A stretch of DNA of 44,300 nt from contig JAITVN010000091.1 in the NCBI GenBank assembly GCA_031285775.1, positions 1 to 44,300 on the forward strand. The letters run 5' to 3'. Source of the stretch: Streptococcaceae bacterium. Lineage in GTDB: Bacteria > Bacillota > Bacilli > Lactobacillales > Streptococcaceae. This document shows, piece by piece, positions 3,902-21,344 of the stretch (position 1 is its first letter; each line of letters begins with the position of its first letter). Below the pieces are notes generated by a model. It was given only the letters and a program-made list of their open reading frames with translations. It was not told the origin of the DNA and did not search any database. Position numbers and translations under genes: made by a program.

Positions 3902-3913
3902 ATAGCCCTTTCT

Positions 3914-5604: not shown

Positions 5605-5613
5605 GAGTTCGTC

Positions 5614-7149
5614 CTACGCTTTCACTAAAAGATTATTCACTTGCTGCCCTGCTTCTTCCCAAAGCTGCCAGGCCCGCTCAGCGTTGAAATATTGTGCACG
5701 TTCATAGGCTGCTTTAGAATAAGCTGCTTGAATTTCAGGATTTGACAAGATTTTGAGAATCGCTTCAGCTGCGGCTTGTTCGCTTCTAAAAGGGACTAGA
5801 TTGCCATCCTTGCCGTTTTTAATCATCTCTGTCAGGCCATATTTGACCTTGTAAGCCACCACTGGCAGGCCGTAGCTCATTCCTTTCAAGATGCCCATTC
5901 CAAAGGCTTCGCCTTCAGATGTACTCAGCAGGACACCGCCTTTTTCCAGGATTTTTGCCAACTCATGCTCGCTCTTGTAGCCGGGAAAAGTCACAAACTC
6001 TTTCGAATTAAGCGCCTCTGCTCTCTTTTCAATTGCCTGACGATAATCCATCGGAGAGGCATAGCCATAAAATTCCAGCTTCACATTGGGCATTTTCTCA
6101 CGCACCCTGGCCAAGATATCCACTGCCTCAACAGAGCCCTTATTGGCAGAAATCATTCCCAGACAAATGATAGTCTGCTCACGTGCTTGCGAAAGCTGCA
6201 CACTGGCATTTTCTACATTCTCAGCATATGTGTCCGGAAGAACCAGAACGCGCTTAAATTTGTAATACCTCAGAATTTCCTCTCGCTGCTGATTTGTCGG
6301 CACAATAAGGCCATCTATCTGATCTACCCAATTGTTAAACAACGGCTCCAGATACGGCACCAACTTACGAGAAGCACCTGCCTGGCGATTATCTGCCGCA
6401 TGCGTATTGTGCAGAAACTGCCATTTACCCGCTGCATTTTCGATTTTGAGCATCGCACTGGTCAGCGTAGGACGATCACAAATAAAGCTGGAAGGCTCTT
6501 TTGCCGCCAATTCAGAAGCAAAAAACGCAAAAAGGTCTTCTTCGGTATTGAAACGCAGAACCTTGTCACTATAATCTAAAAGCTTCCAGCTGGTTGGCGC
6601 CAAAACACCGTTAATATTCATATGGGTCAACTCAATTTTAGGCTGGCCTTGGGCATTGAAAAAAACCTGCGGGCCGAGCGAGCCGTCTGGATGATAATAT
6701 TGTGTGGAAGATTTGAAACCACGGCGATCCCAGACATCACGCGCCACAACAACTTTGTTGTCATTGTACCAGTCAATTGTTCCCACAAGTCCAACAGTTG
6801 CAGGCGCAATCGAAACTTTGGCAATGACTCTGCCATGGAATTTTATCATTGATTCGTTTGCATCAACTGCTTCTATGTGATAAAGATTTTTATCGAACAC
6901 ATCAATGTAGCGGACATCAGCATTGACTCGGGGCTGATCTGTGACTTCCTGAAAATAGTCATACATGTTAAGCACATCTGAGGATTCAAGGCCAACACGT
7001 TCAATGTCGGCAGCACTGTTACTATTGTAATTGCGCGTCAGAATCTTTGCGGGCTGGCCATTTTTCTTGAACAACTGCAGGCGCTTGATGGCAGAAAACT
7101 CAGTTCCAGAATTTAGCGTGAAAACACTTTCGTTTAAAAAATAGTTCAT
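5614..7149 (-). CDS. GtfA/TagE-like GT4 glycosyltransferase (partner of the next gene)
   Basis: A 511-residue paralogue of its downstream neighbour. N-terminal sequence pattern NSGTEFSAIKRLQLF parallels NSGIEHAQLKRAQLF there. The beta-rich insertion (about 60-210) is followed by a GT4 domain with LGMISANKGSVEAVDILARV and the EGEAFGMGILKGMSYGLPVV motif (about 415-435). In accessory-Sec loci, paired GtfA/GtfB proteins form a complex in which one member is catalytic and the other helps bind the acceptor; whether that applies here is inference. It has a good Shine-Dalgarno sequence (GAGGAG) and its own extended -10 promoter. No SecA2/SecY2 genes are in the window. Confidence 0.78.
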   Translation of the reverse strand: MNYFLNESVFTLNSGTEFSAIKRLQLFKKNGQPAKILTRNYNSNSAADIERVGLESSDVLNMYDYFQEVTDQPRVNADVRYIDVFDKNLYHIEAVDANESMIKFHGRVIAKVSIAPATVGLVGTIDWYNDNKVVVARDVWDRRGFKSSTQYYHPDGSLGPQVFFNAQGQPKIELTHMNINGVLAPTSWKLLDYSDKVLRFNTEEDLFAFFASELAAKEPSSFICDRPTLTSAMLKIENAAGKWQFLHNTHAADNRQAGASRKLVPYLEPLFNNWVDQIDGLIVPTNQQREEILRYYKFKRVLVLPDTYAENVENASVQLSQAREQTIICLGMISANKGSVEAVDILARVREKMPNVKLEFYGYASPMDYRQAIEKRAEALNSKEFVTFPGYKSEHELAKILEKGGVLLSTSEGEAFGMGILKGMSYGLPVVAYKVKYGLTEMIKNGKDGNLVPFRSEQAAAEAILKILSNPEIQAAYSKAAYERAQYFNAERAWQLWEEAGQQVNNLLVKA

Positions 7150-7180
7150 GATCTCCTCGTATTTCTTGAATGTCCCAATT

Positions 7181-7189
7181 ATTATATCA
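7181..7189 (-). promoter_or_regulatory. Extended -10 promoter of the GT4 pair
   Basis: TGATATAAT on the minus strand (7189-7181), about 32 bp before the start codon, leaving a normal leader with a Shine-Dalgarno sequence. No convincing -35 box. Confidence 0.5.
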
Positions 7190-7203
7190 TAATTCAGATA
7201 AAT

Positions 7204-8544
7204 TTAATTAAGCGTCACAAGTTTGACTGCGCGAATCTTAGCATGCCAGCCGGCCACTTTCGAATTGTCAAATTGAATGGCAGTCCAGTGTTTTCTTGCC
7301 GAAAAAGTAGCCTGACCTTCTTCAAGTTCAAGATCCTCCCGCTCAGCTTTGGCATTTGATACCAGGCAGAGATGTCCTAAATCCTGATCCGAAATGATTT
7401 CCAAATGATATTTCCGGCCAATGTCGAGAACCGCTTTGAAATGGAACAAGAGACTCGTCTCAGCTTCGTAAGCAGAACGCAAAATCTTCAAACCGTCCGA
7501 TTCGTACTGAAAAGTATAAGCGCGACTTAATTTAATCGGTCTGGCATCCCAGTCCCTGCTGTCCAAATAAAGATCGGGAATCTGCTCCGTGACAGCTTTT
7601 ATGTCCGGCGCATAAAGGAATTCATTGAGATACTGCAAGGCTAAAGGGAAATTACCTGTCACGAAGACACCGTGTGAGCGGTCGCCATTGTAGTCAACAA
7701 ACATTTTATAATCCAAATTCAGTAAAGTAAACTTGCGCACATCCAACTGCACAAGAAATGGATAATTTCCCAGCAGAGAATCTGAACTCAAAACCTTGAT
7801 TTTATCAGGACTAAGTGTTGAATTTAACAATAATCCATTGATTCGGGCGACAAAGTTTTCTGGAATGAAATCCTGCACAATCGCGCTGTCAATCAGGCCA
7901 TCATCCAGCGTTCGGCGATCCATCAGAGGATCAAGCATTACCGCCTGATAGCCGCCCAGCAGCGCATGAACAAAAGCACCTGTCCCGCCGCGAGAATCTC
8001 CATAAATGACAACATTGTCACTGCCCACAGCATTTTCCGCCGCCATTTTCCGGATCAATTGCTGGATCTTCTCTTCATAATCTGGAAAAGTCTGTGTGTT
8101 CTGAAAAAACGAGCCCGAAATCAGGTTACTGTCAGCCAAACGCAGAATAAATGTATTATTGGCCACACGACGAGATAAATCGGGCCAGCGTTGATGTTCC
8201 GCACAGAACATGCGCATTTCCGCCGCCGCATCAAAACGATCTGGAAAAGGAGAAAACCATACCAGCAACTTATTTTTCAAATCCTGATCCACCATAATCG
8301 GCTTTTCCAGATTATAATAGACACCCTCAAAATTATCCGCATCGATATGAATCTGTGATAGAGGCTTGATAATATAACCCAGCTCAGCATCATAACCGTC
8401 AATTGTTTTTCCTGACAAGGCCAAATCATGTATCACATCGTAATTTTGCTTGTCTCGGCCCATAAAATTCTTCATTCCAAAAGTGATCGGCCAAGAACTG
8501 TCTCGCCCTTCATAAAGATCATGTTCAAGCTTGATATGCGCCAT
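7204..8544 (-). CDS. Alpha/beta-hydrolase-fold protein resembling Asp2/XcbB
   Basis: A 446-residue soluble protein with an alpha/beta-hydrolase core. The nucleophile elbow is YGDSRGGTGAF, with Ser184 as candidate nucleophile in a G-x-S-x-G motif. The DYNGDRSHGVF segment (about residue 290) is a plausible source of the His. The C-terminal ~110 residues form a separate beta-rich region. The overall plan recalls Asp2, the acetyltransferase-like partner of GtfA/GtfB in accessory-Sec loci, and the XcbB/CpsF capsule family. Its place directly upstream of two GtfA-like transferases supports a role in modifying the same glycan or glycoprotein. The assignment is by pattern and context only. GGAG precedes the ATG. 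Confidence 0.6.
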   Translation of the reverse strand: MAHIKLEHDLYEGRDSSWPITFGMKNFMGRDKQNYDVIHDLALSGKTIDGYDAELGYIIKPLSQIHIDADNFEGVYYNLEKPIMVDQDLKNKLLVWFSPFPDRFDAAAEMRMFCAEHQRWPDLSRRVANNTFILRLADSNLISGSFFQNTQTFPDYEEKIQQLIRKMAAENAVGSDNVVIYGDSRGGTGAFVHALLGGYQAVMLDPLMDRRTLDDGLIDSAIVQDFIPENFVARINGLLLNSTLSPDKIKVLSSDSLLGNYPFLVQLDVRKFTLLNLDYKMFVDYNGDRSHGVFVTGNFPLALQYLNEFLYAPDIKAVTEQIPDLYLDSRDWDARPIKLSRAYTFQYESDGLKILRSAYEAETSLLFHFKAVLDIGRKYHLEIISDQDLGHLCLVSNAKAEREDLELEEGQATFSARKHWTAIQFDNSKVAGWHAKIRAVKLVTLN

Positions 8545-8573
8545 AAATTCTCCAAAATCTATGTAATCGCTTA

Positions 8574-8582
8574 ATTATAACA
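8574..8582 (-). promoter_or_regulatory. Extended -10 promoter of the Asp2/XcbB-like gene
   Basis: TGTTATAAT on the minus strand (8582-8574), about 29 bp before the start codon, with a ribosome-binding site downstream. The -35 region is weak. Confidence 0.5.
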
Positions 8583-8607
8583 TATTTTTAACTTTTCATT
8601 TTATGAC

Positions 8608-8648
8608 AAAAAAGTCCAGACATTCCTTTGATCAAAGAAAAGCTGGAC
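8608..8648 (-). terminator. Rho-independent terminator of the metal ATPase gene
   Basis: GTCCAG (8614-8619) pairs with CTGGAC (8643-8648), with an inner CTTTGATCAAAG dyad. On the minus strand the stem is followed by six T residues (8608-8613). Confidence 0.75.
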
Positions 8649-8681
8649 AATAAGATTCAAAATATTCGCAAGGATTGAAAA

Positions 8682-10478
8682 TCAGGATTTTCTGTTTATT
8701 CCCCGCAGCGCGCGCAGTGCGTAGAAAATCGAGACCGTATCCACCACTTCCTGAAAGAGCGCACCAATTGTTGCAGGAATTAGTCCCGTTGCCGCAATCA
8801 GCATCAGCACCACACAAATGAAGATTCCTATCAACACTGCCTGCTTGGCAATTGTCATTGTGTCGCGACTGATCCGAATTGCTGTCGGAATCGATTCCAA
8901 ATCATTCTTCAGCAGAATCATATCTGCAGTTTCGCTGGCCACTGTACTCTCGCCCAAACCCATAGCAATACCAACGTCAGACAGAGCCAAGGCAGGTGCA
9001 TCATTAACGCCGTCTCCGACCATGATGCTGGGTTTATCAACGGCAGACTTGACCAAGTCAAGCTTCTGTTCCGGCAGGAGTGACGCATGAACATCTGTGA
9101 TCCCGACCTCTTCGGCAATCGCATTTGCAGTCACCTCATTGTCACCTGTCAACATCGTAATGTCTTTGAGCTTCAGCTTTTTCAGTTCAGTCATGACTGA
9201 TTTGGCATTGGCACGAAGCTGATCAGAGAAGGTAATCTGGCCGATGAACCGCTCATCACTCGAAACATAGAAAGCCGTCGTAACCGCATCGTCAGGCGCC
9301 CCCGCAAAACTCGCGCGGCCGATTTTGATATGTTTGCCGTCAATCTCCGCGGAAATCCCCATTCCTGGAACTTCTGTCAAATTTGAGGTCGGAAGCGGCT
9401 GGATCCCATTTTCTTCGGCATAAGCCACGAAGGATTTGGCTAGAATATGATTTGAGGAGTTTTCAATCGAATAAACCAGAGATTCAAGCTCGGATTTTGA
9501 GATTCCTGACTCTGGTATAACTCCAGAAACCGCTAGCTTTCCACTGGTTATCGTGCCGGTTTTATCAAAAAATATCGACTTTGCGGTTGCCAGTTTCTCA
9601 ATGATCGTCCCATTCTTGATAAGCACCCCATTTTTAGACGAGCGGGACATGCCGGAAACAAAAGCAATCGGCGCTGCCAGAATAAGAGGGCAGGGACTTG
9701 CGACCACCAACACTTGAGCAATACGAACAGGCTCCTTCGTAATGGCGAAAGCCACCCCAGCGATGACATATGCGGCAATCGTGAATGGAATCGCATAGCG
9801 ATCAGCCAGACGCACAAAATGTGCCGGCTGTGACTCCGCTTCCTTGACCAGGGTCACAATCTTCTGCAGCTGTGAATTTGCAGCTTCTTCAGTTGTCTGG
9901 ATTTCAATTGTACTGTCTGTATTAATTGATCCGGACATGACCACATCGCCTTTTGACAATTCATAAGGCTTGGTTTCCCCCGTCAGAGAAGCCTCATCCA
10001 GCGTCGCATGCTCCGAAGACAGCACACCATCAATCGGAACAACCTCCAGAGGCTTTATCAGCAGTGTCGTTCCAACCTTAACCGCATCCAGCTCGCTGTC
10101 AACAATCTTTCCGTCTTCAGCTTTAACATGTGCAATACTTGGCGACTTCTGAAGGAGATTTGTCAATTCGCGATGTGCAACACCCGCAGCATAATCCTCC
10201 AAGGACTCACCGCCGACCAGCATCACAATAATAATCAGCGCAGCCCAGCATTCTCCAACCAAAAGCGTTGCGATAATTGCCGTAATCGCCAGCAAATCCA
10301 CGCCATAATTGCCCGAACGCAGAGTTTTTATCATTCCCACAAACATCGAAAGCGCCAAAATAGAACCCGCAATCGTAATGACCACACGCGCCATTAAAGG
10401 GTTGCCAAAAACAAACTGCGCCAGTAGCGCAATTGCTGCAACAAAAAATGTAATCACCAACTTTTGCCAATTCTTCAT
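8682..10478 (-). CDS. P1B-type heavy-metal-transporting ATPase with SPC motif
   Basis: A 598-residue P-type ATPase that pumps a metal ion across the membrane with ATP. It has no N-terminal metal-binding domain. Visible motifs are the actuator TGE (166-168), membrane SPCPL (261-265), phosphorylation site DKTGT (305-309), TGDN (about 444) and GDGVND (488-493). SPC rather than CPC suggests the P1B-4 class (Co/Fe/Zn/Ni-like), not a copper pump. Two departures: the usual His-Pro of the nucleotide-binding domain is His344-Ile345, and the last membrane helices carry Gln576 (FQEVVD) where HEG-type residues are common. Metal specificity is open. The start codon lies 6 nt after an extended -10, implying a leaderless mRNA. 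Confidence 0.85.
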   Translation of the reverse strand: MKNWQKLVITFFVAAIALLAQFVFGNPLMARVVITIAGSILALSMFVGMIKTLRSGNYGVDLLAITAIIATLLVGECWAALIIIVMLVGGESLEDYAAGVAHRELTNLLQKSPSIAHVKAEDGKIVDSELDAVKVGTTLLIKPLEVVPIDGVLSSEHATLDEASLTGETKPYELSKGDVVMSGSINTDSTIEIQTTEEAANSQLQKIVTLVKEAESQPAHFVRLADRYAIPFTIAAYVIAGVAFAITKEPVRIAQVLVVASPCPLILAAPIAFVSGMSRSSKNGVLIKNGTIIEKLATAKSIFFDKTGTITSGKLAVSGVIPESGISKSELESLVYSIENSSNHILAKSFVAYAEENGIQPLPTSNLTEVPGMGISAEIDGKHIKIGRASFAGAPDDAVTTAFYVSSDERFIGQITFSDQLRANAKSVMTELKKLKLKDITMLTGDNEVTANAIAEEVGITDVHASLLPEQKLDLVKSAVDKPSIMVGDGVNDAPALALSDVGIAMGLGESTVASETADMILLKNDLESIPTAIRISRDTMTIAKQAVLIGIFICVVLMLIAATGLIPATIGALFQEVVDTVSIFYALRALRGINRKS

Positions 10479-10484
10479 AACTTA

Positions 10485-10513
10485 ATTGTAACAAGCTTTC
10501 AGAATGTTGTGAC
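10485..10513 (-). promoter_or_regulatory. Leaderless promoter of the metal ATPase gene
   Basis: Minus strand: TGTTACAAT extended -10 (10493-10485), then six bases, then ATG. A partial -35 (GTCACA, 10513-10508) lies 17 bp upstream. There is no Shine-Dalgarno sequence, so transcription should start at or next to the A of ATG. Confidence 0.65.
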
Positions 10514-10593
10514 CAAATAAATCTGTCAAAAACATTAGACAATAATAGAATAATGTTTTAAAAGGGCACAGTATTCAGACCAAAACACAGGAC

Positions 10594-10622
10594 TTGCAAA
10601 AAACGGAAGAATCTGCTATTAT
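10594..10622 (+). promoter_or_regulatory. rpmF-rpmG promoter
   Basis: TTGCAA (10594-10599), 17-bp spacer, TATTAT (10617-10622). The leader is about 50 nt with an AAAGGAG ribosome-binding site at about 10667-10673. Confidence 0.7.
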
Positions 10623-10680
10623 ATTTAGGCATATATTTTGTGAAAATATTTGAAATTTAAAATCTAAAAGGAGTCTATAA

Positions 10681-10851
10681 ATGGCTGTACCAGCACGTCA
10701 CACCTCTTCGGCGAAGAAAAACCGCCGTCGTACACATTACAAACTGACAGCACCAACTGTTTCATTCGACGAAACAACTGGTGATTACCATCATTCACAC
10801 CGCGTTTCTTTGAAGGGTTACTACAAAGGGCGCAAAGTCACTAAAGCTTAA
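10681..10851 (+). CDS. rpmF: 50S ribosomal protein L32
   Basis: A 56-residue L32 protein of the large ribosomal subunit, starting [20 protein letters not shown] and ending [17 protein letters not shown]. It lacks the CxxC...CxxC zinc ribbon, so it is the zinc-independent type usual in lactococci and streptococci. A strong ribosome-binding site precedes the ATG. rpmG follows after 14 bp in the same transcript. Confidence 0.97.
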
Positions 10852-10865
10852 GAAAGGGGCCTCAC

Positions 10866-11015
10866 ATGCGCGTTAATATCATGCTTGAACACAAAGAGTC
10901 TGGTGAGCGTCTTTACCTCACTCAAAAGAATAAACGCAACACACCTGACAAACTTGAGTTGAAGAAGTATTCTCCAAAACTTAAGAAACATGTTATTTTT
11001 AAAGAAGTGAAGTAA
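10866..11015 (+). CDS. rpmG: 50S ribosomal protein L33
   Basis: A 49-residue L33 ([20 protein letters not shown] at the N-terminus), without the zinc-binding cysteines. It is co-transcribed with rpmF, with the AAAGGGG ribosome-binding site in the short gap. The zinc-free form of both proteins in one operon is normal for this family of bacteria. Confidence 0.97.
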
Positions 11016-11050
11016 AGGGTTGCCTCCTTCAATTTAAAATCACGACTAAG

Positions 11051-11080
11051 ACCAGCCGACAAAATGTGCTGGTTTTATTT
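11051..11080 (+). terminator. Rho-independent terminator of rpmF-rpmG
   Basis: ACCAGC (11051-11056) and GCTGGT (11068-11073) form the stem, followed by TTTATTTATTT. The next promoter begins three bases later. Confidence 0.85.
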
Positions 11081-11082
11081 AT

Positions 11083-11121
11083 TTGACCAAGTGATATTAT
11101 TATGATATTATATTAATATCA
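11083..11121 (+). promoter_or_regulatory. Promoter with overlapping operator-like repeats, SPFH gene
   Basis: TTGACC (11083-11088), 17-bp spacer, TATTAT (11106-11111). TGATATTAT occurs at 11092-11100 and again at 11103-11111, one helical turn apart. The second copy is the left arm of the palindrome TGATATTA-TAT-TAATATCA (11103-11121), which covers the -10 and start site. This is a good operator candidate, possibly for the ribbon-helix-helix-like protein encoded downstream. Confidence 0.6.
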
Positions 11122-11138
11122 AATAAAGGAGCCTCGCC

Positions 11139-12143
11139 ATGAACAAAAAAGACGTGACCGAAAAAGAGTTGAAGCCGATGAACGGCATCGGTATGCTGAT
11201 TTTGAGTATCATACTCGTTCTATCCTTACCGCTCGGAATCTTAATGCTGGTGATGAACCAAAACACACTGAGCATTACAGTATTCACGCTGAGCATCATT
11301 CTTTCCTGTATTGTCGCCCCGATATTGTGGGCAGGCCTGAAGTCCGTCCAACCCAATGAAGCACGTGTGCTGACCCTTTTCGGAAGCTATCACGGCACCA
11401 TTAGTCATCCCGGCTTCTACTTCGTCAACCCTTTCTGCGTGTCCTATTCCCCAGAAAGTACCAAACTCAGCGTGACACCAACAGGAGAAGCAGTCGTCAC
11501 CCCGAATCAGAAACTTACGCGCTGTATTTCCCTGAAAACCCAGACTTTGAACAATAACAAGCAAAAAGTCAATGACCTCCTGGGAAATCCGATCATCATC
11601 GGCGCCATCGTGCTCTGGCGGGTGGACAATCCGACTCAGGCCGTCTTCTCTGTCGAAAACTACAAGGTCTACCTGGAAACCCAGACCGACTCAATCATCC
11701 GAAATGTCTCGCGCTTGTATCCATATGATATTTTTGACGAGGATGACGATGCGGCAGATAATGTCGAAGGAACAGACAAGCAGGAGAAAACCTTGCGCGG
11801 CTCCGCTCTTGAAATTGCCGAGCTGATGAAGGCAGAGCTGCAGAAACGTGTGCACGATGCCGGCCTCATCATTGAGGATGTGCGAATCACGCATTTGGCT
11901 TATGCGGAAGAAATTGCGGCTGCCATGCTGCAGCGACAACAAGCCGCTGCCATCATTGCTGCACGGCAAAAAATTGTGGACGGCGCAGTTGGTATGGTCA
12001 AAATGGCCATTGATAAACTCGGTGAAGAGGAAGTTGTGATACTTGATGAGGAGCGCAAAGCAGCAATGGTTTCTAATTTGCTGGTCGTTCTTTGCGGCAG
12101 TCATGATGCGCAGCCGATTGTCAATAGCGGGTCCATTTACTAA
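11139..12143 (+). CDS. SPFH/band-7 domain membrane protein
   Basis: A 334-residue stomatin/prohibitin-family protein. Two N-terminal membrane segments (about 17-38 and 44-64) are followed by the SPFH domain, starting [33 protein letters not shown] long helical region (about 220-310) contains an acidic stretch and the typical Ala/Gln-rich [31 protein letters not shown] segment. Such proteins oligomerise at the membrane and organise microdomains or protect against envelope stress. AAAGGAG precedes the ATG. It is probably co-transcribed with the small gene at 12284, with a strong hairpin between them. Confidence 0.88.
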
Positions 12144-12240
12144 TTAGATGTGAGGCGCGCCCGTTAAGAAGCGTAGAAATTAAGGGAGTCTAGGTTCTGC
12201 CTTAGGGCAGGTTTAAGATTCATCTAATTTCTACGCTTCT
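12143..12240 (+). repeat. Intergenic inverted repeat with competing pairings
   Basis: A perfect 16-bp inverted repeat (12167-12182 with 12225-12240) encloses a small hairpin CTGCC-TTAG-GGCAG. In addition ATTAGATG (12143-12150), at the end of the SPFH gene, is complementary to CATCTAAT (12221-12228), which overlaps the right arm. The two pairings cannot form fully together. No T-run follows, so it is not an ordinary terminator. It may act in the mRNA between the SPFH and downstream genes. Confidence 0.6.
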
Positions 12241-12283
12241 GGCCGCCAAACTCAGTTGGGGGAAAATAGGAAGCTGGGCTAAA

Positions 12284-12538
12284 ATGGATTTAAACGAAAA
12301 AGAACTGAAGCTTCAAGAGCGGCTAGCCAAACTTGAGAAACTTGAAGCGGAAATTAAGGCACGTGAAAAGTCAGTCAAAAAAAAGGAACAGGAGAAAAAG
12401 CAGGTACTGCTTCGTTTGTCTCCCACTCTCTGGAAGCAGGTTGCGACTTGGTCAGAAGAAGATTTTCGCTCCATCAACAGTCAGATTGAATTCATTTTGA
12501 CTGAAGCTGTTAAGCAGCACTTTGGCAAGAAAAAATGA
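12284..12538 (+). CDS. Small coiled-coil protein with ribbon-helix-helix-like (Arc type) C-terminus
   Basis: An 84-residue basic protein. Residues 1-45 are a highly charged predicted coiled coil (repeated Lys/Glu with Leu spacing). Residues 45-80 (VLLRLSPTLWKQVATWSEEDFRSINSQIEFILTEAV) look like a ribbon-helix-helix DNA-binding fold: a beta strand followed by two helices with the S-x-N-x-Q-I-E-F-I-L second helix. Proteins of this kind are often encoded beside SPFH-domain genes. It may repress the operon through the palindrome at 11103-11121, but that is inference. The ribosome-binding site (AGGAAG) is modest. Confidence 0.65.
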   Translation: MDLNEKELKLQERLAKLEKLEAEIKAREKSVKKKEQEKKQVLLRLSPTLWKQVATWSEEDFRSINSQIEFILTEAVKQHFGKKK

Positions 12539-12624
12539 GCTGGCAGATCTGGGCGAATTCATTATTCCAGCATCTGAGGCAAAAATTCCAACTTTTTAAT
12601 CAGGCTGGAGTTTTTGACCTTCCT

Positions 12625-12647
12625 AAACCTTTTCTGGAAAGGTTTTT
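12625..12647 (+). terminator. Rho-independent terminator after the SPFH operon
   Basis: AAACCTTT (12625-12632) and AAAGGTTT (12638-12645), 5-nt loop, followed by TT. It ends two bases before the extended -10 of the next gene. Confidence 0.7.
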
Positions 12648-12648
12648 A

Positions 12649-12657
12649 TGATATAAT
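12649..12657 (+). promoter_or_regulatory. Leaderless promoter of the DUF2142 gene at 12664
   Basis: Extended -10 TGATATAAT (12649-12657), then six bases and the ATG at 12664. No -35 match at the right distance and no Shine-Dalgarno sequence, because the terminator stem occupies that space. Confidence 0.6.
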
Positions 12658-12663
12658 TTACCA

Positions 12664-14019
12664 ATGGATTTCTTTGCAAAATTTGTCGAAAAAATAAATC
12701 AGACAAAAAACATTACAAATTTTGCTTGTGTAATCATTTTTGTTGTCATTTCATTTATGATGGGAAGCTTTTACATTAAAAATGTTTCTCCTTTGACGCT
12801 TCCTGATGCCAATATGCATTTGGAGAATTCGGTCTCATTAGCAGAAGGAAATGTTTTCTTAACCAAAGACTATGTTAAGCTTCCAAGCCAGTATTCCTTT
12901 GAGTATGAGGACAAAAATTCCGTTCGTCCTTTGGCTGACTTTGCCAAAACCAATCGTTTGATCTCGAATATTTTGCCGGATATCTACACTAAAGGAGATG
13001 ATCATTGGATTAGCAAGATTCAGAAGCTCCCAAAAGTCACAGGCAAAACCAAAACATATATCAGACATCAATACCCTTCGATTAACTGGCTGCCGCAAGC
13101 TCTTGGTTTTTCTTTCGCACAGGCGCAGAGGAGTTCAGTGGCAAATACTTTTATTTCAATGCGCGTCGCGAATCTGATTTTCTACATTGTGACTGCTGTC
13201 ATTTCACTTTGTCTTCTGCCCCGCGGGAAAATTATCGCTACGGCACTTTTGCTCAATCCATATACGATTTTTTTGGCCTCTTCGATTTCTGGTGACATTT
13301 TCACCATTGCTGCGGCGAATCTCTTTATCGCTTTCCTTTTCAATCTTTGCGCCCAAGGTGAGACGCTTCGCGCCTCAAAGATAGTTCCCCTATTTTTCCT
13401 TGGAATATTGCTCTTCTTGACAAAGGTGGCATATGTTCCTCTGCTTCTCTTAATCTTTGCGATTCCAAAACAGCGGCTCAAGCTCAGTCTAAAGTTTTTG
13501 TATACTGCGCTAATCGGTGCCATTGGCTCCGTTCTTTACCTTCTCTGGTCAAAATTCTTCTCGGTCGTCGGCTATCCGCTGGAGTTCAAGCCTGAAAAGA
13601 ATCTGGCTTATGTGCTAGAAAGACCTTGGAAAGCAATAGTCAGCATTTTTGATAACGTGATTCAGCCCAAAGAGGTTTTGAGTTACTGGAATAAAGCATT
13701 TTCCGGTAAGGTCAAGCTTGTCAACCAGCAGTTATTATATCCGGTAATCATTTGTTTTATCCTTGGGCTTATCTGGCTTATGGTCTACTTGATTTTCCTT
13801 AGAAATAAAGCGAATTTGCGGCTGTTCATTGTTTCAGTGCTGGCAGCCTTCGGCTCAATATTTATTACCAATGCGGCACTGCTTGTGACTTGGACTTTCG
13901 CTTACAAATTCGGCTTTAAAGACATCATCGGTTTTCAAGGCAGATATTACATCCCGCTCATCTTACTGCTCCTTGTCCCTTGGGTCGCAAACTATAAAGC
14001 AAAAAACAAGCCTGACTGA
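12664..14019 (+). CDS. DUF2142 polytopic membrane protein (GT-C-like)
   Basis: A 451-residue membrane protein with about ten hydrophobic segments, first at about 20-38. A large extracytoplasmic loop follows it (40-150), beginning with the acidic PDANMHLENS segment. The C-terminus carries GFQGRYYIPLILLLL, the QGRYF-type signature of DUF2142 proteins. That family has a GT-C glycosyltransferase appearance and is found in wall-polysaccharide loci. It is probably an undecaprenyl-phosphate-sugar-dependent transferase working outside the membrane. It is related to the gene at 25597-27135, but stands alone here, 7 kb from the polysaccharide cluster. The ATG appears leaderless. Confidence 0.75.
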   Translation: MDFFAKFVEKINQTKNITNFACVIIFVVISFMMGSFYIKNVSPLTLPDANMHLENSVSLAEGNVFLTKDYVKLPSQYSFEYEDKNSVRPLADFAKTNRLISNILPDIYTKGDDHWISKIQKLPKVTGKTKTYIRHQYPSINWLPQALGFSFAQAQRSSVANTFISMRVANLIFYIVTAVISLCLLPRGKIIATALLLNPYTIFLASSISGDIFTIAAANLFIAFLFNLCAQGETLRASKIVPLFFLGILLFLTKVAYVPLLLLIFAIPKQRLKLSLKFLYTALIGAIGSVLYLLWSKFFSVVGYPLEFKPEKNLAYVLERPWKAIVSIFDNVIQPKEVLSYWNKAFSGKVKLVNQQLLYPVIICFILGLIWLMVYLIFLRNKANLRLFIVSVLAAFGSIFITNAALLVTWTFAYKFGFKDIIGFQGRYYIPLILLLLVPWVANYKAKNKPD

Positions 14020-14030
14020 TATTTTAAAGC

Positions 14031-14061
14031 AAAAAAGCTTAGCATTTCGATAAGCTTTTTT
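14031..14061. terminator. Bidirectional terminator
   Basis: Perfect 11-bp stem (14031-14041 with 14051-14061) with A-runs and T-runs on both sides, between the convergent genes at 12664 and 14089. Confidence 0.85.
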
Positions 14062-14088
14062 AATTGAGTTCGTTTCAGGGTAATTCGA

Positions 14089-15312
14089 TTAGTTTGTTTC
14101 CTCCAGCAGCTGCTCGATTCTCTTGATAATCAAATCAAATTCATTGTCTTCAGCAGGCGGCGCTTCAGATTCAATCGAATGGCTGCTTATTGTCGAAACA
14201 GATTCAGGCGGCACAATAGCCTGGACTTTTTGGCTGTCAGAGAGAAGGACTTCATCGCTTTGTTCGAGCGAGTGCCATTGCTCCTGGGCTTGTCTCAGTG
14301 ACTCCAAATGTATCTGATAAGATTGAGAACTTGAATCTGATAAGAATTCCTGATATTGTTCGCTTGCCTGCTGACTGTTACGCAGTGAGGCTGACTGACG
14401 CCAATAAAGCTGCGCACTCACTGACTGGCTCTGACTTGTCTGCCATTCAAATTCTTGGCTAAGCGCCGTTTGACGGGCAGCTTCTGACTGACTCAAGCTA
14501 TCCAAAAGCTGGGCACGTTCGCGCTCAGAAAGTGACTGTGAATTTTTCTCTGAAATCTTTCCAAAAATTCGTTCGGAAACCTGCTCTGAATTGTGTGCTG
14601 AATTTTGCAGCGAATTTTGCTCTGAATTTTGCTCTGAAATCCGCCAAGAATTTTGCTCATCTATCAGCAGCGAATCTTGCGCAGAGATTTGCTCTGATTC
14701 TTGTGCAGAATATTGTTCAGAATACAAAACGGAATTCCTGTGATCAGCCATGCTTTGTTCGCTGATCTCCTGAAGCCGCAGTTTTTCTGATTCTGAGCTT
14801 GAGGAGAAATTGGTTTGTACGCCTGTATGTACATGTTCAATTTTCTGTAATTTCTCAATCGGGGTCTCGGATTCAAAGCTCTGACTATACGCTCGACTTC
14901 TACCGAGAGCTTTTCCTTCTGAGAAAAGCAGGTCACTTTTAGAGGCGCGCTTTGCTTGTGAAGGACGGGCAGGTTCATCAAAGCTAGAAATAGGCAGCTC
15001 CTCCTGTACTTTCGACGAAATCGCTGGTTTGAGCGCTTTCTGCACCTCTATTTCCATGGCTTGGTCTTCATCTAGTCTTTCATTATAAAGTGACCAAAGT
15101 TTGCCGATCCCGACAAGTGCCAGCAGCACAACGACAAAAATAATTGTCTGCCCAATAAAGCCAGACGTTTTTCGCCCGCCAGAGCCGAATAATGACTGCC
15201 AATAAGCCTGCAGCATTCGGACAGCAAAAATAGCCGCCGCCACAAAAATAAGAAAATAAACGATTGACAATACAACTCTGGAAATTCCTTGTTTTCGGAT
15301 GAAATCTGTCAT
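14089..15312 (-). CDS. Membrane protein with long Ser/Gln/Glu-rich repetitive domain
   Basis: A 407-residue protein of unknown function. Two membrane segments (about 12-33 and 50-70) precede a long hydrophilic tail. From about 140 to 370 the tail is extremely rich in Ser, Gln and Glu. A degenerate unit such as SEQNSEQNSLQNSAHNSEQ places Ser every three or four residues, so Ser would line one face of a helix or coiled coil. By charge, the N-terminus should be inside and the tail also cytoplasmic, but this is uncertain. There is no LPxTG motif and no signal peptide. Ser-rich composition makes it a possible substrate for the GT4 pair at 3988-7149 or for a Ser/Thr kinase. The mRNA appears leaderless. 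Confidence 0.6.
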   Translation of the reverse strand: MTDFIRKQGISRVVLSIVYFLIFVAAAIFAVRMLQAYWQSLFGSGGRKTSGFIGQTIIFVVVLLALVGIGKLWSLYNERLDEDQAMEIEVQKALKPAISSKVQEELPISSFDEPARPSQAKRASKSDLLFSEGKALGRSRAYSQSFESETPIEKLQKIEHVHTGVQTNFSSSSESEKLRLQEISEQSMADHRNSVLYSEQYSAQESEQISAQDSLLIDEQNSWRISEQNSEQNSLQNSAHNSEQVSERIFGKISEKNSQSLSERERAQLLDSLSQSEAARQTALSQEFEWQTSQSQSVSAQLYWRQSASLRNSQQASEQYQEFLSDSSSQSYQIHLESLRQAQEQWHSLEQSDEVLLSDSQKVQAIVPPESVSTISSHSIESEAPPAEDNEFDLIIKRIEQLLEETN

Positions 15313-15435: not shown

Positions 15436-16683
15436 ATGAAAAAGAAAAGTTTATTGATCCTTGCGGCAGCCCTCACCGCCTTTGGTGTCACCTGTCTGAC
15501 TGGACGATCTGCCCACGCTGAGGGATCCGCTGATCCGTCAAACAGATCTGACCTTGTTGGAGGCATTCAGGCGCTTGCTGACAGCGTTCCGAACATCTTT
15601 TCGGGCGACACTTCACTCCCGCGTGTTGATGCGGTGGATGTCGCGAGTTACCAATCATGGATGACTCAAGCAGATTTTAATCAGCTGAGAATACAGGGCG
15701 TGCGAACGGCGATCGTCAAGCTGACTGAGGGAACAAGCTACGACAATCCTGTTGCGCCCAAGCAGATCAATTTTGCTGCAAATGCAAGCATGAACGTTGC
15801 GGCTTACCATTATCTTAAGTTAGACGATGCCAAGACTCAGGAGGTCGCAAATGCCGAAGCTGTCAAAGAAGCGCAGAAATTCGTGAATGCGGCCAGCTAT
15901 TACGGCTTAGGAAGCAGCACCGTTATGATCCTCGACTGTGAAAGTAACGGCGTCGACAGAAACAAGGTTGACTGGACTGAAGCTGCTGAGAAATTTGCAG
16001 ACAAGCTTGCTTCTGTCGGCTATACAAATGTTCGCTATTATGCTGGTGCAAACTGGATCAAGGCTAAAATCATTGATCCAGATGTGCTTGGCTATAAAAA
16101 TATATGGGCTGCACAGTACCTTTATGACAAACCAAGCGCTACAAACCTGAAAAACACGCAATATGGCGCTTGGCAATTTTCCAGCCGCATGTATTTCAAA
16201 AATATGAGCCAGTCGCGGCCGCTTGACGTCTCAATCGACTATGCGAATATCTTCGGCGGAGGAACAGGCCCTGCCATTTTTGGAGGACCAGGCTCAGTCT
16301 TTAGGCTCTACAATCCGAATAGCGGTGAGCACTTCTACACTGAAAGCGCCTTTGAGGCAAATCAGGATGTGATTGCCGGCTGGAAATACGAAGGCATCGG
16401 CTGGACAGCACCCGACACTGGAAACGAAGTCTACCGGCTTTACAATCCAAATGCAGGGGATCATTTTTATACCATGATTCCATTTGAGCGGGATTCACTC
16501 GTCAAGGCTGGCTGGAACTATGAGGGCGTAGATTTTCACTCCGGCGGAAATACACCGCTTTATCGGGCTTACAATCCCAATGCCAAGACAGGCGCGCACA
16601 ACTACACCACCTCTCCATTTGAACAGCAGAATCTGCTCAAAGCCGGCTGGCGTGATGAAGGCATTGCCTGGTACGGAAAGTGA
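15436..16683 (+). CDS. Secreted GH25 lysozyme with three DUF5648 repeats
   Basis: A 415-residue secreted muramidase. The Sec signal peptide (1-28) ends AHA before Glu. A linker leads to a GH25 domain (about 64-275) with the family start DVASYQ (Asp68) and the catalytic DCE (Asp167, Glu169). GH25 enzymes cut the MurNAc-GlcNAc bond in peptidoglycan. The C-terminus (about 284-415) holds three copies of the DUF5648 repeat, pattern RLYNPNxGEHFYT...E...L...GW.YEG, probably a wall or carbohydrate-binding module. No Shine-Dalgarno sequence: the mRNA looks leaderless. It is divergent from the Ser-rich protein gene, with both promoters in 123 bp. It could serve in autolysis or in killing neighbours. 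Confidence 0.9.
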   Translation: MKKKSLLILAAALTAFGVTCLTGRSAHAEGSADPSNRSDLVGGIQALADSVPNIFSGDTSLPRVDAVDVASYQSWMTQADFNQLRIQGVRTAIVKLTEGTSYDNPVAPKQINFAANASMNVAAYHYLKLDDAKTQEVANAEAVKEAQKFVNAASYYGLGSSTVMILDCESNGVDRNKVDWTEAAEKFADKLASVGYTNVRYYAGANWIKAKIIDPDVLGYKNIWAAQYLYDKPSATNLKNTQYGAWQFSSRMYFKNMSQSRPLDVSIDYANIFGGGTGPAIFGGPGSVFRLYNPNSGEHFYTESAFEANQDVIAGWKYEGIGWTAPDTGNEVYRLYNPNAGDHFYTMIPFERDSLVKAGWNYEGVDFHSGGNTPLYRAYNPNAKTGAHNYTTSPFEQQNLLKAGWRDEGIAWYGK

Positions 16684-17287: not shown

Positions 17288-17317
17288 AAAAAAAACGAAC
17301 CTCCGAAGAGATCCGTT
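17288..17317 (-). terminator. Rho-independent terminator of the left DUF5648 gene
   Basis: 10-bp stem with two wobble pairs (17294-17303 with 17308-17317) and a tetraloop (TTCG as RNA UUCG on the minus strand), followed by eight T residues on the minus strand. Confidence 0.85.
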
Positions 17318-17334
17318 TTCTGCATTAGAGCTTA

Positions 17335-18123
17335 TCAGCTGTTATCACCAACGATTGTTTGGTTAGGGCCTGATCCATTGCTTGCAGTATCAGGAGTTGA
17401 TTCGCCTGGTAATACTGAACCGTTAGAAACAGGGCCTTCTGGGCCTGCATAACCAGTATCAGCTGCAGGGAATGGGTTACCAGTTTCAACCAAGTGGAAG
17501 GCTACATTGCCCATACCACCAGCTGGCTGCCAGCCGGCACCGAGAAGTGAATTTTCTTCAGCCAAGAACATTGTGTAGTTATGTTGGCTGTTATTAGCAT
17601 TGTATGCTGCATAAACATCAAATTGGCCTGCATCAATGAAAGCAACGCCTTCATCTACCCAGCCCTTAGCCATCAATGAACGTGCCTCATACTCTGAAGA
17701 TGTGTAATAGTGAACACCTGCATTTTTGTTATACAAACGTGTTACAGCAGTTGAGTGACCAGTAGTATAAGTTTTTCCTAAAGTACCCTCGTAGTTCCAG
17801 CCTGAGTTGATGAGCAATGAAGCTGCTTCGTAAGAAGAAACTGTGTAGAAGTGCTCACCTGTATTAGGATTGTACATACGGAAGATTGAAATAGGAGTGG
17901 TCTCATCTGCAGCAATTACAGAGTTTGCTTCGATGTGAGCCAATGCAGCTTGTTTTGACTTGTCTGAAGTAAAGAATGTTTGACCGATGGATGCATTATT
18001 TCCAGAGATATGCACTGGAGGATCGACAGGACCGCCTTCTGCAAATGCAGTACCTGTAGAAGCAGCAGCTCCGCCAAGAGTCAAAGCTGCTACTGCTGCA
18101 GCAGTAATTTTTGTAAGTTTCAT
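17335..18123 (-). CDS. Secreted DUF5648-repeat protein (left copy, apparently without ribosome-binding site)
   Basis: A 262-residue secreted protein. The Sec signal peptide (1-28, MKLTKITAAAVAALTLGGAA then ASTGTAFA) is followed by a short spacer and three DUF5648-type repeats (FRMYNPNTGEHFYT, TRLYNKNAGVHYYT, YAAYNANNSQHNYT) and a Gly/Ser/Pro-rich tail. The mature part is clearly homologous, but not identical, to the protein at 20536. The ATG at 18123 is chosen because the signal peptide and 11 bases upstream are identical in both copies. An in-frame TTG at 18207 would add an implausible basic extension. No Shine-Dalgarno sequence or promoter lies directly upstream; the recombinase gene ends 95 bp before it. 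It may therefore be silent in this orientation. Confidence 0.85.
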   Translation of the reverse strand: MKLTKITAAAVAALTLGGAAASTGTAFAEGGPVDPPVHISGNNASIGQTFFTSDKSKQAALAHIEANSVIAADETTPISIFRMYNPNTGEHFYTVSSYEAASLLINSGWNYEGTLGKTYTTGHSTAVTRLYNKNAGVHYYTSSEYEARSLMAKGWVDEGVAFIDAGQFDVYAAYNANNSQHNYTMFLAEENSLLGAGWQPAGGMGNVAFHLVETGNPFPAADTGYAGPEGPVSNGSVLPGESTPDTASNGSGPNQTIVGDNS

Positions 18124-18134
18124 AAATTGAAACT
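18041..18134 (-). repeat. 94-bp perfect inverted repeat, left copy
   Basis: Identical, in reverse orientation, to 20525-20618. It covers 11 bases upstream of the start codon and 83 bases of signal-peptide coding sequence. Identity stops abruptly at both ends: at the Shine-Dalgarno position upstream and at the last signal-peptide codon downstream. No synonymous difference occurs in 27 complete codons, although the mature proteins have diverged. Confidence 0.9.
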
Positions 18135-18218
18135 TAAAACGTTTAAAGCGCTTATTCAAAGTATTTCTGAGTTGTCCGCTAAAAAATTCTCTCCGAGCTT
18201 GTTCCAAGAACCTAGCCG

Positions 18219-19376
18219 CTAAAAACCTTCTCGGATAATTTTTTCAACGATTTCGCGGTCTTTGTCTAACACATGAAGATAATTTTTCTTAAAGGTCGTC
18301 TCAGAATGTCCCCATTGCTCAGCGACGGCTTTTTGAGCGCTGACAGTGTTTGCTACCTTTGAAGCAAGGATGCTTTCTGTGGTGTGCCGCATGGCGTAAA
18401 GGGTCAGCTTGCAATTTAAACCCAGCGCGTCAAGAAATTTTCTCAGCCTGCGATTGATTGTCTCTGGAGAAGTCGGAAGGCCATATTTATATTTGGGACT
18501 TGCAAAAACCAGTTGATGTTCGTTGACACGTTGTCCAGAATATGCAGCATAAGCTTTTTCCTGCCTCTGCTTCAAAGCCTGCAGAAGCTGATAATCCTCT
18601 GATGATAAAGGAATGGGAATGCGATCTCGAAGCTTTGTTTTATTGCCTGAAGAGGCGCGATGATTTTCTAAATCATAAGAGCTGATCCAGAGGTAGGGAA
18701 ATCCTTTTTCATTCATGTACAAATGGTCCCATCTCATCCCATAAAGCTCCTTCGGCCTTAGACCGTATTTTGAAAAATAAAGCAAATAATTGATGAAGTC
18801 ATTTTCCTTATCATTTAAATGATTTTTCAACTGTTCATACAAGATCCGGCATTCTCGCTCACTTGATAAATATTTGTTTTTCTCCTCTTTGGGCTGCTTT
18901 TTAGACAGAAAGACGGTGCCAAGTGTAAAGTCTTTCAACTGAATGTTTTCACCCAACGCACATTCAATTGCTTTTTTAACATAACCGTTAAAGCGGATCA
19001 GATAGGCCCTCCCCCATTTTCCACAGAGGCGGTTAATGGCAGTTTGATAGACAGTGTGACTGATTTTATTAATAGGAATTCCGTCAAAAAGTTCCTTCAT
19101 ATTTTTCAGGGCTTGTCGGTATAATTTCTGACTTCCTCGCGAGTTCCTATTTTTTTGTGTCATCTTCAAATAGGCCGAAAAGAAATCACTGAGATCGCTC
19201 CTTTTCTCATCAAAGTCCAAGTTGAGCACTCCCAGTTTGAGCTCGTTTTTTATTTTCAAAGCCCAAAAGAGCGCGTCATCTTTTGAATCAAAAGTCCTGA
19301 CCGCGATGGTTTGAGCAGATTGGCGAACGGTGGCTGTAATTCGGCCCTTTCTATTTTGTAGTCTAATGCTTGACAT
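18219..19376 (-). CDS. Tyrosine recombinase/integrase
   Basis: A 385-residue site-specific recombinase of the phage-integrase family. The N-terminal part (about 1-165) fits arm- and core-binding domains. The catalytic domain (about 170-385) has Arg207 (GLRPKEL), a candidate Lys248, Arg330 (YAMRHTTES), His357 (WGHSETTF) and the nucleophile Tyr366 (KNYLH). The box II His is replaced by Tyr327, a known variation in this family. A good ribosome-binding site (AGGGGG) and a TATAAT (19403-19398) lie upstream. No excisionase, relaxase or phage gene accompanies it. It lies between the two inverted DUF5648 genes, so a role in inverting that segment is the most interesting possibility; a degraded integrated element is the alternative. 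Confidence 0.85.
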   Translation of the reverse strand: MSSIRLQNRKGRITATVRQSAQTIAVRTFDSKDDALFWALKIKNELKLGVLNLDFDEKRSDLSDFFSAYLKMTQKNRNSRGSQKLYRQALKNMKELFDGIPINKISHTVYQTAINRLCGKWGRAYLIRFNGYVKKAIECALGENIQLKDFTLGTVFLSKKQPKEEKNKYLSSERECRILYEQLKNHLNDKENDFINYLLYFSKYGLRPKELYGMRWDHLYMNEKGFPYLWISSYDLENHRASSGNKTKLRDRIPIPLSSEDYQLLQALKQRQEKAYAAYSGQRVNEHQLVFASPKYKYGLPTSPETINRRLRKFLDALGLNCKLTLYAMRHTTESILASKVANTVSAQKAVAEQWGHSETTFKKNYLHVLDKDREIVEKIIREGF

Positions 19377-19446
19377 TGAATTTCCCCCTGGTGTTATATT
19401 ATAGAGCTGGAAATAGTAAATTTGTCGGAAAAATTTGCTTTTATTC

Positions 19447-19475
19447 TTGCTTTTTTGTTCCTCTTCTTATAAAAT
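19447..19475 (+). promoter_or_regulatory. Leaderless promoter of cppA
   Basis: TTGCTT (19447-19452), 17-bp spacer, TAAAAT (19470-19475), six bases, ATG at 19482. No Shine-Dalgarno sequence in the pyrimidine-rich upstream region. Confidence 0.6.
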
Positions 19476-19481
19476 AAACAT

Positions 19482-20210
19482 ATGACTAACTTACTTGAAC
19501 AGATTGAAGAAATGCGGCCGGTTTTTCGTGTTTCTGATCGTGATGCAACCGTTAATTTTTATACAACGGTACTCGGCCTGAAATTGATCAATGAAAATAG
19601 TTTTATGCTCCAATTCGGAAGTCGCGATGATGAGCAGATTTGTGTGATCTGCGCGATTTCCCCTGAAAGTCTTGGTTTTCATAAAGCCGAAGGCCAGAAA
19701 CGCCACATCGTCACGATTATAAAGGCCAGCCAAGCAGATATCCGGCAGCTGATTGTTCGCCACAAGGATAAAATGGCACAGATTTTTTATGGGGCATCAG
19801 GCTATGCTTTCAGTACCGTATCGCCTGACGGAGATGCCTTTACAGTCATGACGGCAGATGCTGGTCCTTCCACAGAAATTCCCAAAGATGACCTTGACTT
19901 AAGAGAAGACTATTTTATCGGCCTCAAAGATGTGTCAGTAGTTTCGACCATGATCGCTTCTCCAGATGCGGGTGATTTCTACAATAAAAACCTCTTGGTT
20001 CAGTACATCCATCCTGTGCCTGTTCCTACTGAAGCTGCTTCAGACACGGAGACTTGGGATTTAGGTGCAGTTCAGTTCAAGCTGAAAGAAGACGTCAGAC
20101 TTGACGAACTCATGCTGGATCTCACAGATCTGAATTATAGTTTCAATGAAAACACGCAACTCTTCTCAGTCACGGCTCCCAACAACCTAGAACTTCAGTT
20201 TACTAAATAA
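19482..20210 (+). CDS. cppA: CppA-like protein (VOC/glyoxalase fold)
   Basis: A 242-residue protein of the streptococcal CppA family, once described as a C3-degrading proteinase. The N-terminal half (about 8-125) has a vicinal-oxygen-chelate/glyoxalase-like pattern (RPVFRVSDRDATVNFYTTVLGLKL). The C-terminal half (about 140-242) is a second domain with DLGAVQFKLKEDVRLDELMLDL. No signal peptide is seen, which argues for a cytoplasmic role. Its function is not established. It lies inside the segment bounded by the 94-bp inverted repeats, next to the recombinase and divergent from it. Confidence 0.75.
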   Translation: MTNLLEQIEEMRPVFRVSDRDATVNFYTTVLGLKLINENSFMLQFGSRDDEQICVICAISPESLGFHKAEGQKRHIVTIIKASQADIRQLIVRHKDKMAQIFYGASGYAFSTVSPDGDAFTVMTADAGPSTEIPKDDLDLREDYFIGLKDVSVVSTMIASPDAGDFYNKNLLVQYIHPVPVPTEAASDTETWDLGAVQFKLKEDVRLDELMLDLTDLNYSFNENTQLFSVTAPNNLELQFTK

Positions 20211-20441
20211 ATCAGAACATTAGCGGTTCATAAAAAATAGTGAAAAGTCCCTAAAGATCGCTGAAAAGTAATTTTGAGAGGCTTTTTTGTTTGAATGAAA
20301 TATCGGGAGTCAAGTCGGAGAAAGTTGGGTAAAACGCCGTCAAAATCACACGAAAGAGCAATTTGATCCGAGAAGAAGGCCAGAATTGCCCAAACTCAGG
20401 AATCGTTAATTTACTCTATTTTTTCATCATATCATCATGAT
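20211..20441. other. Intergenic region after cppA without recognised gene
   Basis: No ORF with a plausible start is seen here. TTAGCG (about 20220) and CGCTGA (about 20261) could pair with a long loop, too weak to call a terminator. TAGCGG here recalls the same six bases just after the recombinase stop at about 18215, but nothing longer is shared. Confidence 0.4.
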
Positions 20442-20485
20442 TTGACGCATTATTACTTGACAAATATATAATAATGCGTTAAACT
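20442..20485 (+). promoter_or_regulatory. Promoter embedded in a 14-bp inverted repeat, right DUF5648 gene
   Basis: TTGACGCATTATTA (20442-20455) and TAATAATGCGTTAA (20469-20482) are inverted arms matching at 13 of 14 positions. Between them lies a consensus -35, TTGACA (20457-20462). With a 17-bp spacer the -10 is TAAACT (20480-20485). A dimeric regulator binding the arms would cover the promoter. Leader about 44 nt with AAGGAG. Confidence 0.65.
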
Positions 20486-20524
20486 ATTTCTGTAGTGTTA
20501 GAGCTCTACATAATAAAAGAAAGG

Positions 20525-20618
20525 AGTTTCAATTTATGAAACTTACAAAAATTACTGCTGCAGCAGTAGCAGCTTTGACTCTTGGCGGAGCTGCTGCTTC
20601 TACAGGTACTGCATTTGC
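20525..20618 (+). repeat. 94-bp perfect inverted repeat, right copy
   Basis: Exact reverse-orientation copy of 18041-18134. The left border falls within the Shine-Dalgarno sequence, so promoter and most of the ribosome-binding site lie just outside the repeat, inside the potentially invertible segment. Confidence 0.9.
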
Positions 20619-21285
20619 TGACGGCGTGACCTTAGACACAGCAACTCAAGGCGACCTTGGTCAATTCTTGGCAACAACTAAAGATCCTACAACACTTGAC
20701 GCATTGAAAGATATTGCTGCTCAGGCTAATCCTGCTGGCGGTCTCGCACTTTACCGCATGTACAATCCTGGTAACGGCGAGCATTTCTACACTGTTTCTT
20801 CTTTCGAAGCTGCTTCATTACTTTTGGCTGGCTGGAGCTATGAAGGAACTCTTGGCACAACTGCTGCCAGCGGTTCATCTGTTCTCCGCCTTTACAATGC
20901 AAATGCTGGTGTTCACTATTACACAGCTTCAGAATATGAAGCACGCCAATTGGTAGCTAAAGGCTGGTCAGATGAAGGCGTTGCATTCATCGATTCTGGT
21001 TCTGTTCCTGTCTTTGCAGCTTACAATGCAAACAACAGCCAACACAACTTTACAACGATTCCATTTGAGCAAAATGCTTTGATCGCTGCAGGCTGGCACA
21101 ATGCTGGCGGTATGAATGCTGTCGCTTTCCATTTGGAAGCTCAGGGTACTTCATTCGGCGCTAAAGATGCTTCAGGCCTGACAGGTGATTCTATCACTTC
21201 AAACGGCGATTTGCTGGCTCCTGCTGAAGAAGCTGCTCCAAATTCACCTGCTGGAACACCAATTCACGGAAATTCTGGTTATTAA
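20536..21285 (+). CDS. Secreted DUF5648-repeat protein (right copy, with promoter and ribosome-binding site)
   Basis: A 249-residue secreted protein. The signal peptide (1-28) is identical in DNA sequence to that of the left copy. The mature part has an Asp/Thr-rich N-terminus, three DUF5648-type repeats (YRMYNPGNGEHFYT, LRLYNANAGVHYYT, FAAYNANNSQHNFT) and a Pro/Ala/Gly-rich tail without a sortase motif. Retention at the surface would have to be non-covalent. AAAGGAG lies nine bases before the ATG, and a promoter with a 14-bp dyad lies upstream, so this copy should be the expressed one. Codon choice looks biased toward common codons, suggesting high expression. Confidence 0.88.
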   Translation: MKLTKITAAAVAALTLGGAAASTGTAFADGVTLDTATQGDLGQFLATTKDPTTLDALKDIAAQANPAGGLALYRMYNPGNGEHFYTVSSFEAASLLLAGWSYEGTLGTTAASGSSVLRLYNANAGVHYYTASEYEARQLVAKGWSDEGVAFIDSGSVPVFAAYNANNSQHNFTTIPFEQNALIAAGWHNAGGMNAVAFHLEAQGTSFGAKDASGLTGDSITSNGDLLAPAEEAAPNSPAGTPIHGNSGY

Positions 21286-21310
21286 TAGGTATTGATGACG
21301 CTAACACGGA

Positions 21311-21344
21311 AAACGGTTCTCTACTCCATGAGAACCGTTTTTTT
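21311..21344. terminator. Terminator between right DUF5648 gene and rgpF
   Basis: Perfect 11-bp stem (21311-21321 with 21330-21340), followed on the plus strand by a run of seven T residues in all (21338-21344). On the minus strand a short T4 follows, so it may also stop the leftward polysaccharide transcript. Confidence 0.85.

Follow-up and report, generated by a model that had tools for sequence, protein, structure and literature searches.

A putative two-gene DNA inversion switch between secreted DUF5648 proteins in a Streptococcaceae draft genome

The nearest described counterpart of the locus treated here is the slpA/slpB system of Lactobacillus acidophilus, in which two S-layer paralogues, one of them silent, are exchanged by a chromosomal inversion (Boot et al. 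1996, as cited in PMC6015585 and PMC7858073), and in L. crispatus M247 the slp genes are opposed and transcribed in opposite directions (PMC10763512). A comparable plan is found on one contig (C101) of a Streptococcaceae bacterium, whose draft genome has 2.26 Mb in 119 contigs and is 90% complete; this whole 44.3-kb contig is the stretch that was analysed and is called the window below. Here, a divergent gene pair encoding secreted DUF5648 proteins flanks a tyrosine recombinase gene on the minus strand and a cppA paralogue on the plus strand, and a perfect 94-bp inverted repeat covers both gene starts (Table 1). The best explanation of this locus, to which we give a probability of roughly 0.77, is a two-gene DNA inversion switch that is operated by its own recombinase.

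As in slpA/slpB, two secreted or surface paralogues with one predicted silent member would be exchanged by inversion, the paralogues being opposed and identical at their 5' ends, with expression signals on one of them only. The products here are DUF5648 proteins and not S-layer proteins, however, and the segment itself contains the gene of the tyrosine recombinase, whereas the slp inversion site has reportedly been compared with the recognition sequence of Hin, i.e., of the serine type. In the H1/H2 flagellin system of Salmonella, the gene of the serine recombinase Hin and a promoter lie inside the invertible segment, and this single outward promoter serves one operon plus a repressor. The present locus resembles it in the internal recombinase gene and promoter, but differs in that two paralogues would be swapped at their start codons.

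The cwpV switch of Clostridioides difficile turns a single gene ON or OFF, which differs from the choice between two genes that is predicted here. In that case, a recombinase-driven inversion makes the expression of a cell-wall protein phase-variable (PMC2784873). In a related bacterial order, the cod/spnIII system of Streptococcus pneumoniae employs a locus-encoded recombinase of the same tyrosine class (PsrA/CreX), with inverted repeats of 15-298 bp located within paralogous coding genes (PMC7096588, PMC6620402); there, the halves of the hsdS coding sequences recombine, whereas here the whole genes are intact and it is the promoter and the Shine-Dalgarno sequence that would move. The combination of an slp-like plan, an internal tyrosine recombinase, a DUF5648 cargo and a crossover in the Shine-Dalgarno/start region was not found in the literature searched.

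The two arms of the repeat are identical at 94 of 94 positions, and each runs from 11 bases 5' of the ATG through the signal-peptidase site, encoding the signal peptide of its gene. There is no similarity inward of the repeat, and outward the identity ends abruptly, the flanks dropping to the similarity expected of paralogues. A genome-wide search returned two copies of the region, both at this locus, and within the window the pair is the sole perfect inverted repeat of at least 24 bp; a shufflon involving other DUF5648 genes that share the start region was ruled out on the basis of these two copies. All the silent sites within the repeat match, and this full agreement has a probability of ~1e-7 at the rate observed in the mature parts, where agreement is limited to 61 of the 111 degenerate codons that specify identical residues. 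The mature parts share 60% DNA identity, with pairwise nonsynonymous (dN) and synonymous (dS) divergences of 0.43 and 1.41, respectively, i.e., a dN/dS of ~0.3. Given that the repeat is identical and the mature parts have diverged, the start regions have a shared history which is much younger than that of the rest of the genes.

The signals for expression are distributed unequally. The right gene has both a promoter and a complete Shine-Dalgarno sequence, AAAGGAG, while at the start of the left gene only the AG is retained, preceded by TTTTA instead of AAAGG, and no promoter match was found upstream of it in 17900-18300. The left gene is an intact cassette, consisting of an open reading frame and its own UUCG-loop terminator, without promoter or Shine-Dalgarno sequence, and is predicted to be silent in the present orientation, in which the right gene would be expressed. 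When the segment is inverted in silico, the left gene gains the promoter together with AAAGG, which reconstitutes AAAGGAG, and the right gene is left with TTTTAAG and loses both signals; this is the arrangement of an inverton, with inverted repeats bounding a segment that contains a promoter for a flanking gene.

This picture had been drawn in a first-pass annotation from the letters alone, and its coordinates of the repeat, the identity extending over 11 non-coding bases and every synonymous site with sharp ends and diverged mature parts, the promoter of the right gene with an operator-like dyad inside the segment, the lack of a left promoter and the effect of inverting the segment were all reproduced. 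Its placement of the Shine-Dalgarno sequence just outside the repeat holds for AAAGG, but the last two bases lie within the repeat. The dyad in question, ACGCATTATTA-13-TAATAATGCGT, lies over the -35 element of the right gene, has no exact match elsewhere in the genome and is probably an operator.

The core sites of tyrosine recombinases have short inverted arms around an asymmetric spacer of 5-8 bp, and a dyad shaped like such a site, AGTTTCA-ATTTA-TGAAACT, is found at the edge of the repeat, the innermost base of which is exactly the outermost base of the dyad. The plus-strand sequence of the spacer is TAAAT at the left site and ATTTA at the right site, and this orientation corresponds to an inversion-type arrangement. 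Dyads with 7-base arms and spacers of 4-8 bases occur in the window at 0.0005 per position, and the exact motif is present only at these two sites in the entire genome. Short TTCTCGGAT repeats, picked out by eye as candidate arm-type recombinase-binding sites, are not expected to exceed chance and were dropped.

In the mechanism that we propose, the predicted core sites would be placed head to head, overlapping the start codons of the two divergent genes, and the segment between them would carry the promoter, the 5' half of the Shine-Dalgarno sequence, the recombinase gene and cppA. Recombination of both cores by the recombinase would flip the segment, and the right protein would be made in the present orientation and the left protein in the inverted one. 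The cppA copy within the segment is a passenger with no obvious role in the switch; the genome has two diverged cppA genes, the other being at G000:C32:4939-5619. The taxonomic distribution of cppA points to a member of Lactobacillales, probably of Streptococcaceae.

Table 1. Positions in the window of the genes, repeats and signals of the putative switch
Feature	Position	Strand	Remarks
Intrinsic terminator of left gene	17290..17321	-	14-bp stem, UUCG loop, U tract; RNA fold -17.4 kcal/mol, z -3.9
Left DUF5648 gene, 262 aa	17335..18123	-	Intact open reading frame, signal peptide; Pfam PF18885 1.3e-58
Left arm of the 94-bp perfect inverted repeat	18041..18134	-	11 bp leader + signal-peptide codons
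Left core-site-like dyad AGTTTCA-TAAAT-TGAAACT	18116..18134		Extends to 9-bp arms, 18114-18136
Predicted invertible segment, 2390 bp	18135..20524		DNA between repeat edges; in-silico inversion
Tyrosine recombinase, 385 aa, phage/integrative and conjugative element (ICE) integrase type	18219..19376	-	Pfam PF00589 3.4e-12, PF14659; PHROG integrase 7.5e-31
cppA paralogue, segment passenger	19482..20210	+	Pfam PF14506 1.6e-19
Operator-like dyad, 11-bp arms, covering the -35 element	20445..20479		Unique in genome
Right-gene promoter TTGACA-17-TAAACT	20457..20485	+	Within segment
Shine-Dalgarno AAAGGAG	20520..20526	+	Cut by repeat edge: AAAGG in segment, AG in repeat
Right core-site-like dyad AGTTTCA-ATTTA-TGAAACT	20525..20543		At repeat inner edge
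Right arm of the 94-bp perfect inverted repeat	20525..20618	+	Matches left arm
Right DUF5648 gene, 249 aa	20536..21285	+	Promoter and Shine-Dalgarno sequence present; Pfam PF18885 4e-36
Intrinsic terminator of right gene	21308..21343	+	RNA fold -19.1 kcal/mol, z -4.4

The recombinase combines PF00589, which scores above the cut-off, with the SAM-like domain PF14659, and is 25-30% identical to integrases of phages of Lactococcus, Listeria and Latilactobacillus. The residues R207, R330, H357 and Y366, already singled out in the first reading of the sequence, align with the catalytic residues of its homologues and mark the protein as a tyrosine recombinase; the position of the histidine of the HxxR motif is occupied by Y327, and some relatives also have a tyrosine there. 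It belongs to the same family as the phage and ICE integrases of Lactobacillales, such as those of bIL309 and BK5-T, with a SAM-like N-terminal domain and a catalytic domain. Unlike these proteins, which integrate and excise elements, it has no phage or ICE genes (structural, conjugation or replication) around it, its neighbours being the DUF5648 genes, cppA, a GH25 lysozyme and glycosyltransferase-like genes, and its putative sites are inverted. A prophage or ICE integration site was ruled out, given the absence of element genes and the inverted, not direct, orientation of the repeats. Two relatives examined in their genomic context resemble the integrases of conjugative or integrative elements.

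The closest relative of this recombinase in the same genome, with 28% identity, is located on another contig (C72), where it is also encoded on the minus strand between divergent paralogues. At this locus (L073, G000:C72:12000-26554, at 2055-14533) the paralogues are collagen-like surface proteins, and the recombinase gene is accompanied by that of an Rgg-type regulator, in the position held by cppA in the window. Among the eight tyrosine recombinases of the genome, only these two were found between divergent paralogues, with the contigs of two others (C80 and C82) being too short to judge, and the pair groups apart from other integrases with 100% support, albeit on long branches. The C72 paralogues share ~75% DNA identity and an inverted element, perfect over 22 bp and imperfect over ~45 bp, which lies ~190 bp upstream of both; this element, TTGTTAAACTACAGGTATGAAA, may be a second inversion site or, equally, the box of an Rgg-type regulator. 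Because the repeats at C72 are imperfect and of little length, and Gln replaces the second catalytic His in the recombinase there, the parallel is architectural only, supporting the plan of the switch in the window and not its mechanism. The C72 locus could represent an older switch, one that is dead, or a pair of genes under regulator control. On a more tentative level, which we hold at somewhat below even odds, a lineage of integrases of integrative elements may have been domesticated in this species as a cis-acting chooser between paired surface proteins at no fewer than these two loci, with the crossover in the window falling in the Shine-Dalgarno/start region, where one promoter and ribosome-binding site would serve two alternative secreted lectins.

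We are highly confident that the segment can be inverted, whichever the mechanism, and it is probable, with a smaller margin of certainty, that the encoded recombinase performs the inversion. What a tyrosine recombinase swaps is limited to the short overlap between the two positions at which it cuts, and another process is needed for the identity of the outer 75 bp of the repeat. Occasional homologous exchange or gene conversion involving the two arms would most simply account for the upkeep of this identity, and might flip the segment as well. For this reason, the earlier view of a start region homogenised by repeated recombination is valid for homologous exchange or conversion but not for the recombinase itself. 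A rival possibility is that the segment inverts, or did so in the past, through RecA-dependent homologous recombination between the arms, with the recombinase being a bystander left by a mobile element: only homologous exchange or conversion explains the silent-site identity of the outer 75 bp, and in pneumococcus both recombinase-dependent and -independent routes of hsdS inversion are documented, some inversions in cod/spnIII being independent of PsrA/CreX (PMC7096588, PMC6620402). We nevertheless regard a bystander as unlikely, given that a core-like dyad without further exact matches in the genome stands precisely where the repeat ends inward, and that the recombinase is intact, lies within the segment and has a paralogue at C72 which repeats the layout.

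Less probable still is that no switch exists, a one-time inversion or duplication having left the left gene without a promoter, as a silent remnant onto which gene conversion copied the signal-peptide region. Gene conversion alone yields a short identical tract, and the assembly has a single orientation, with no relatives showing otherwise; on the other hand, the left gene has an uninterrupted reading frame, a terminator of its own and the low pairwise dN/dS, and a decaying gene is not expected to retain every base of the leader, the core dyad and the signal peptide. That the flanks were misjoined at the repeat during assembly is very improbable: the genome is a fragmented draft in which an inverted repeat of 119 bp forms the very ends of another contig, C80, but both copies of the 94-bp repeat stand with distinct flanks in one contig, and a misjoin could only swap the orientation and not generate the repeat, the core and two cassettes.

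The reading of the locus as a switch operated by its own recombinase, first put forward on the sequence of the window, is strengthened by the core-like dyad at the repeat edge, the second locus of the same layout and the terminator on the silent gene. In its favour, too, inverted repeats of at least 16 bp spanning the recombinase gene within 8 kb were found in 0 of 17 other homologues of the phage/ICE type. Several observations weigh against it. No inverted copy was seen, and assembly of the contig runs through the two repeats; an assembly k of 119 is suggested by the 119-bp repeat at the ends of C80, in which case the 94-bp repeats would be bridged and an abundant second orientation would break the contig, pointing to rare switching or to one dominant orientation. 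The collections searched contain no close relative in which the orientation could be compared, exact scans with the core and the start region in genome_contigs and viral_contigs returned nothing, nor did scans with cppA and the recombinase, and in four other genomes of the genus the DUF5648 identities are 31-46% and no match to the recombinase was found. The family of the recombinase is otherwise integrative (phage, ICE). The imperfect repeats and altered catalytic residue at C72 count on the same side.

For the DUF5648 domain a three-bladed beta-alpha propeller fold has been described (PMC12853789), and a glycan-binding role has been proposed for it in toxins of Bacteroidales and in GH70 enzymes. 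Both proteins of the putative switch match PF18885 above the gathering score, and in each the domain is joined to a signal peptide only; the structure model of the right protein is such a propeller, with a pLDDT (predicted local distance difference test score) of ~90 over the blades. The two products would then be alternative secreted lectins, with a common signal peptide and different mature, probably glycan-binding propellers. Flipping of the segment would, if it occurs, exchange a secreted and probably glycan-binding protein in a subset of cells without mutation. If the reading is correct, a DUF5648 example would join the known cases of phase variation, with an integrase that acts as an invertase from within the DNA it inverts and a crossover site that is predicted with precision.

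DUF5648 matches number 33 in this genome, across many contigs, as against 0-9 in each of the four other genomes of the genus, and the set is a large lineage-specific expansion. Within the window, a GH25 lysozyme fused to DUF5648 (15436-16683) adjoins the putative switch, and a further match lies at 41513-41908; beside the GH25 gene, 14089-15312 encodes a protein that is anchored in the membrane and contains a long low-complexity stretch rich in Ser and Gln.

Two other contigs carry recombinases associated with hsdS, which look closer to PsrA/CreX by context than is the recombinase of the window. The first, C80 (L131, 3776 bp), is bounded by its 119-bp perfect terminal inverted repeats and carries, in addition to the tyrosine recombinase, a zeta-toxin-like kinase, a DUF1016-like protein and an hsdS-like piece, these three being named by eye; it is likely to be an unresolved inversion segment of a type I restriction system. 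In the second (L075, G000:C82, at 4018-6103), hsdS converges on a tyrosine recombinase gene at the contig end, and this is a candidate phase-variable type I restriction locus.

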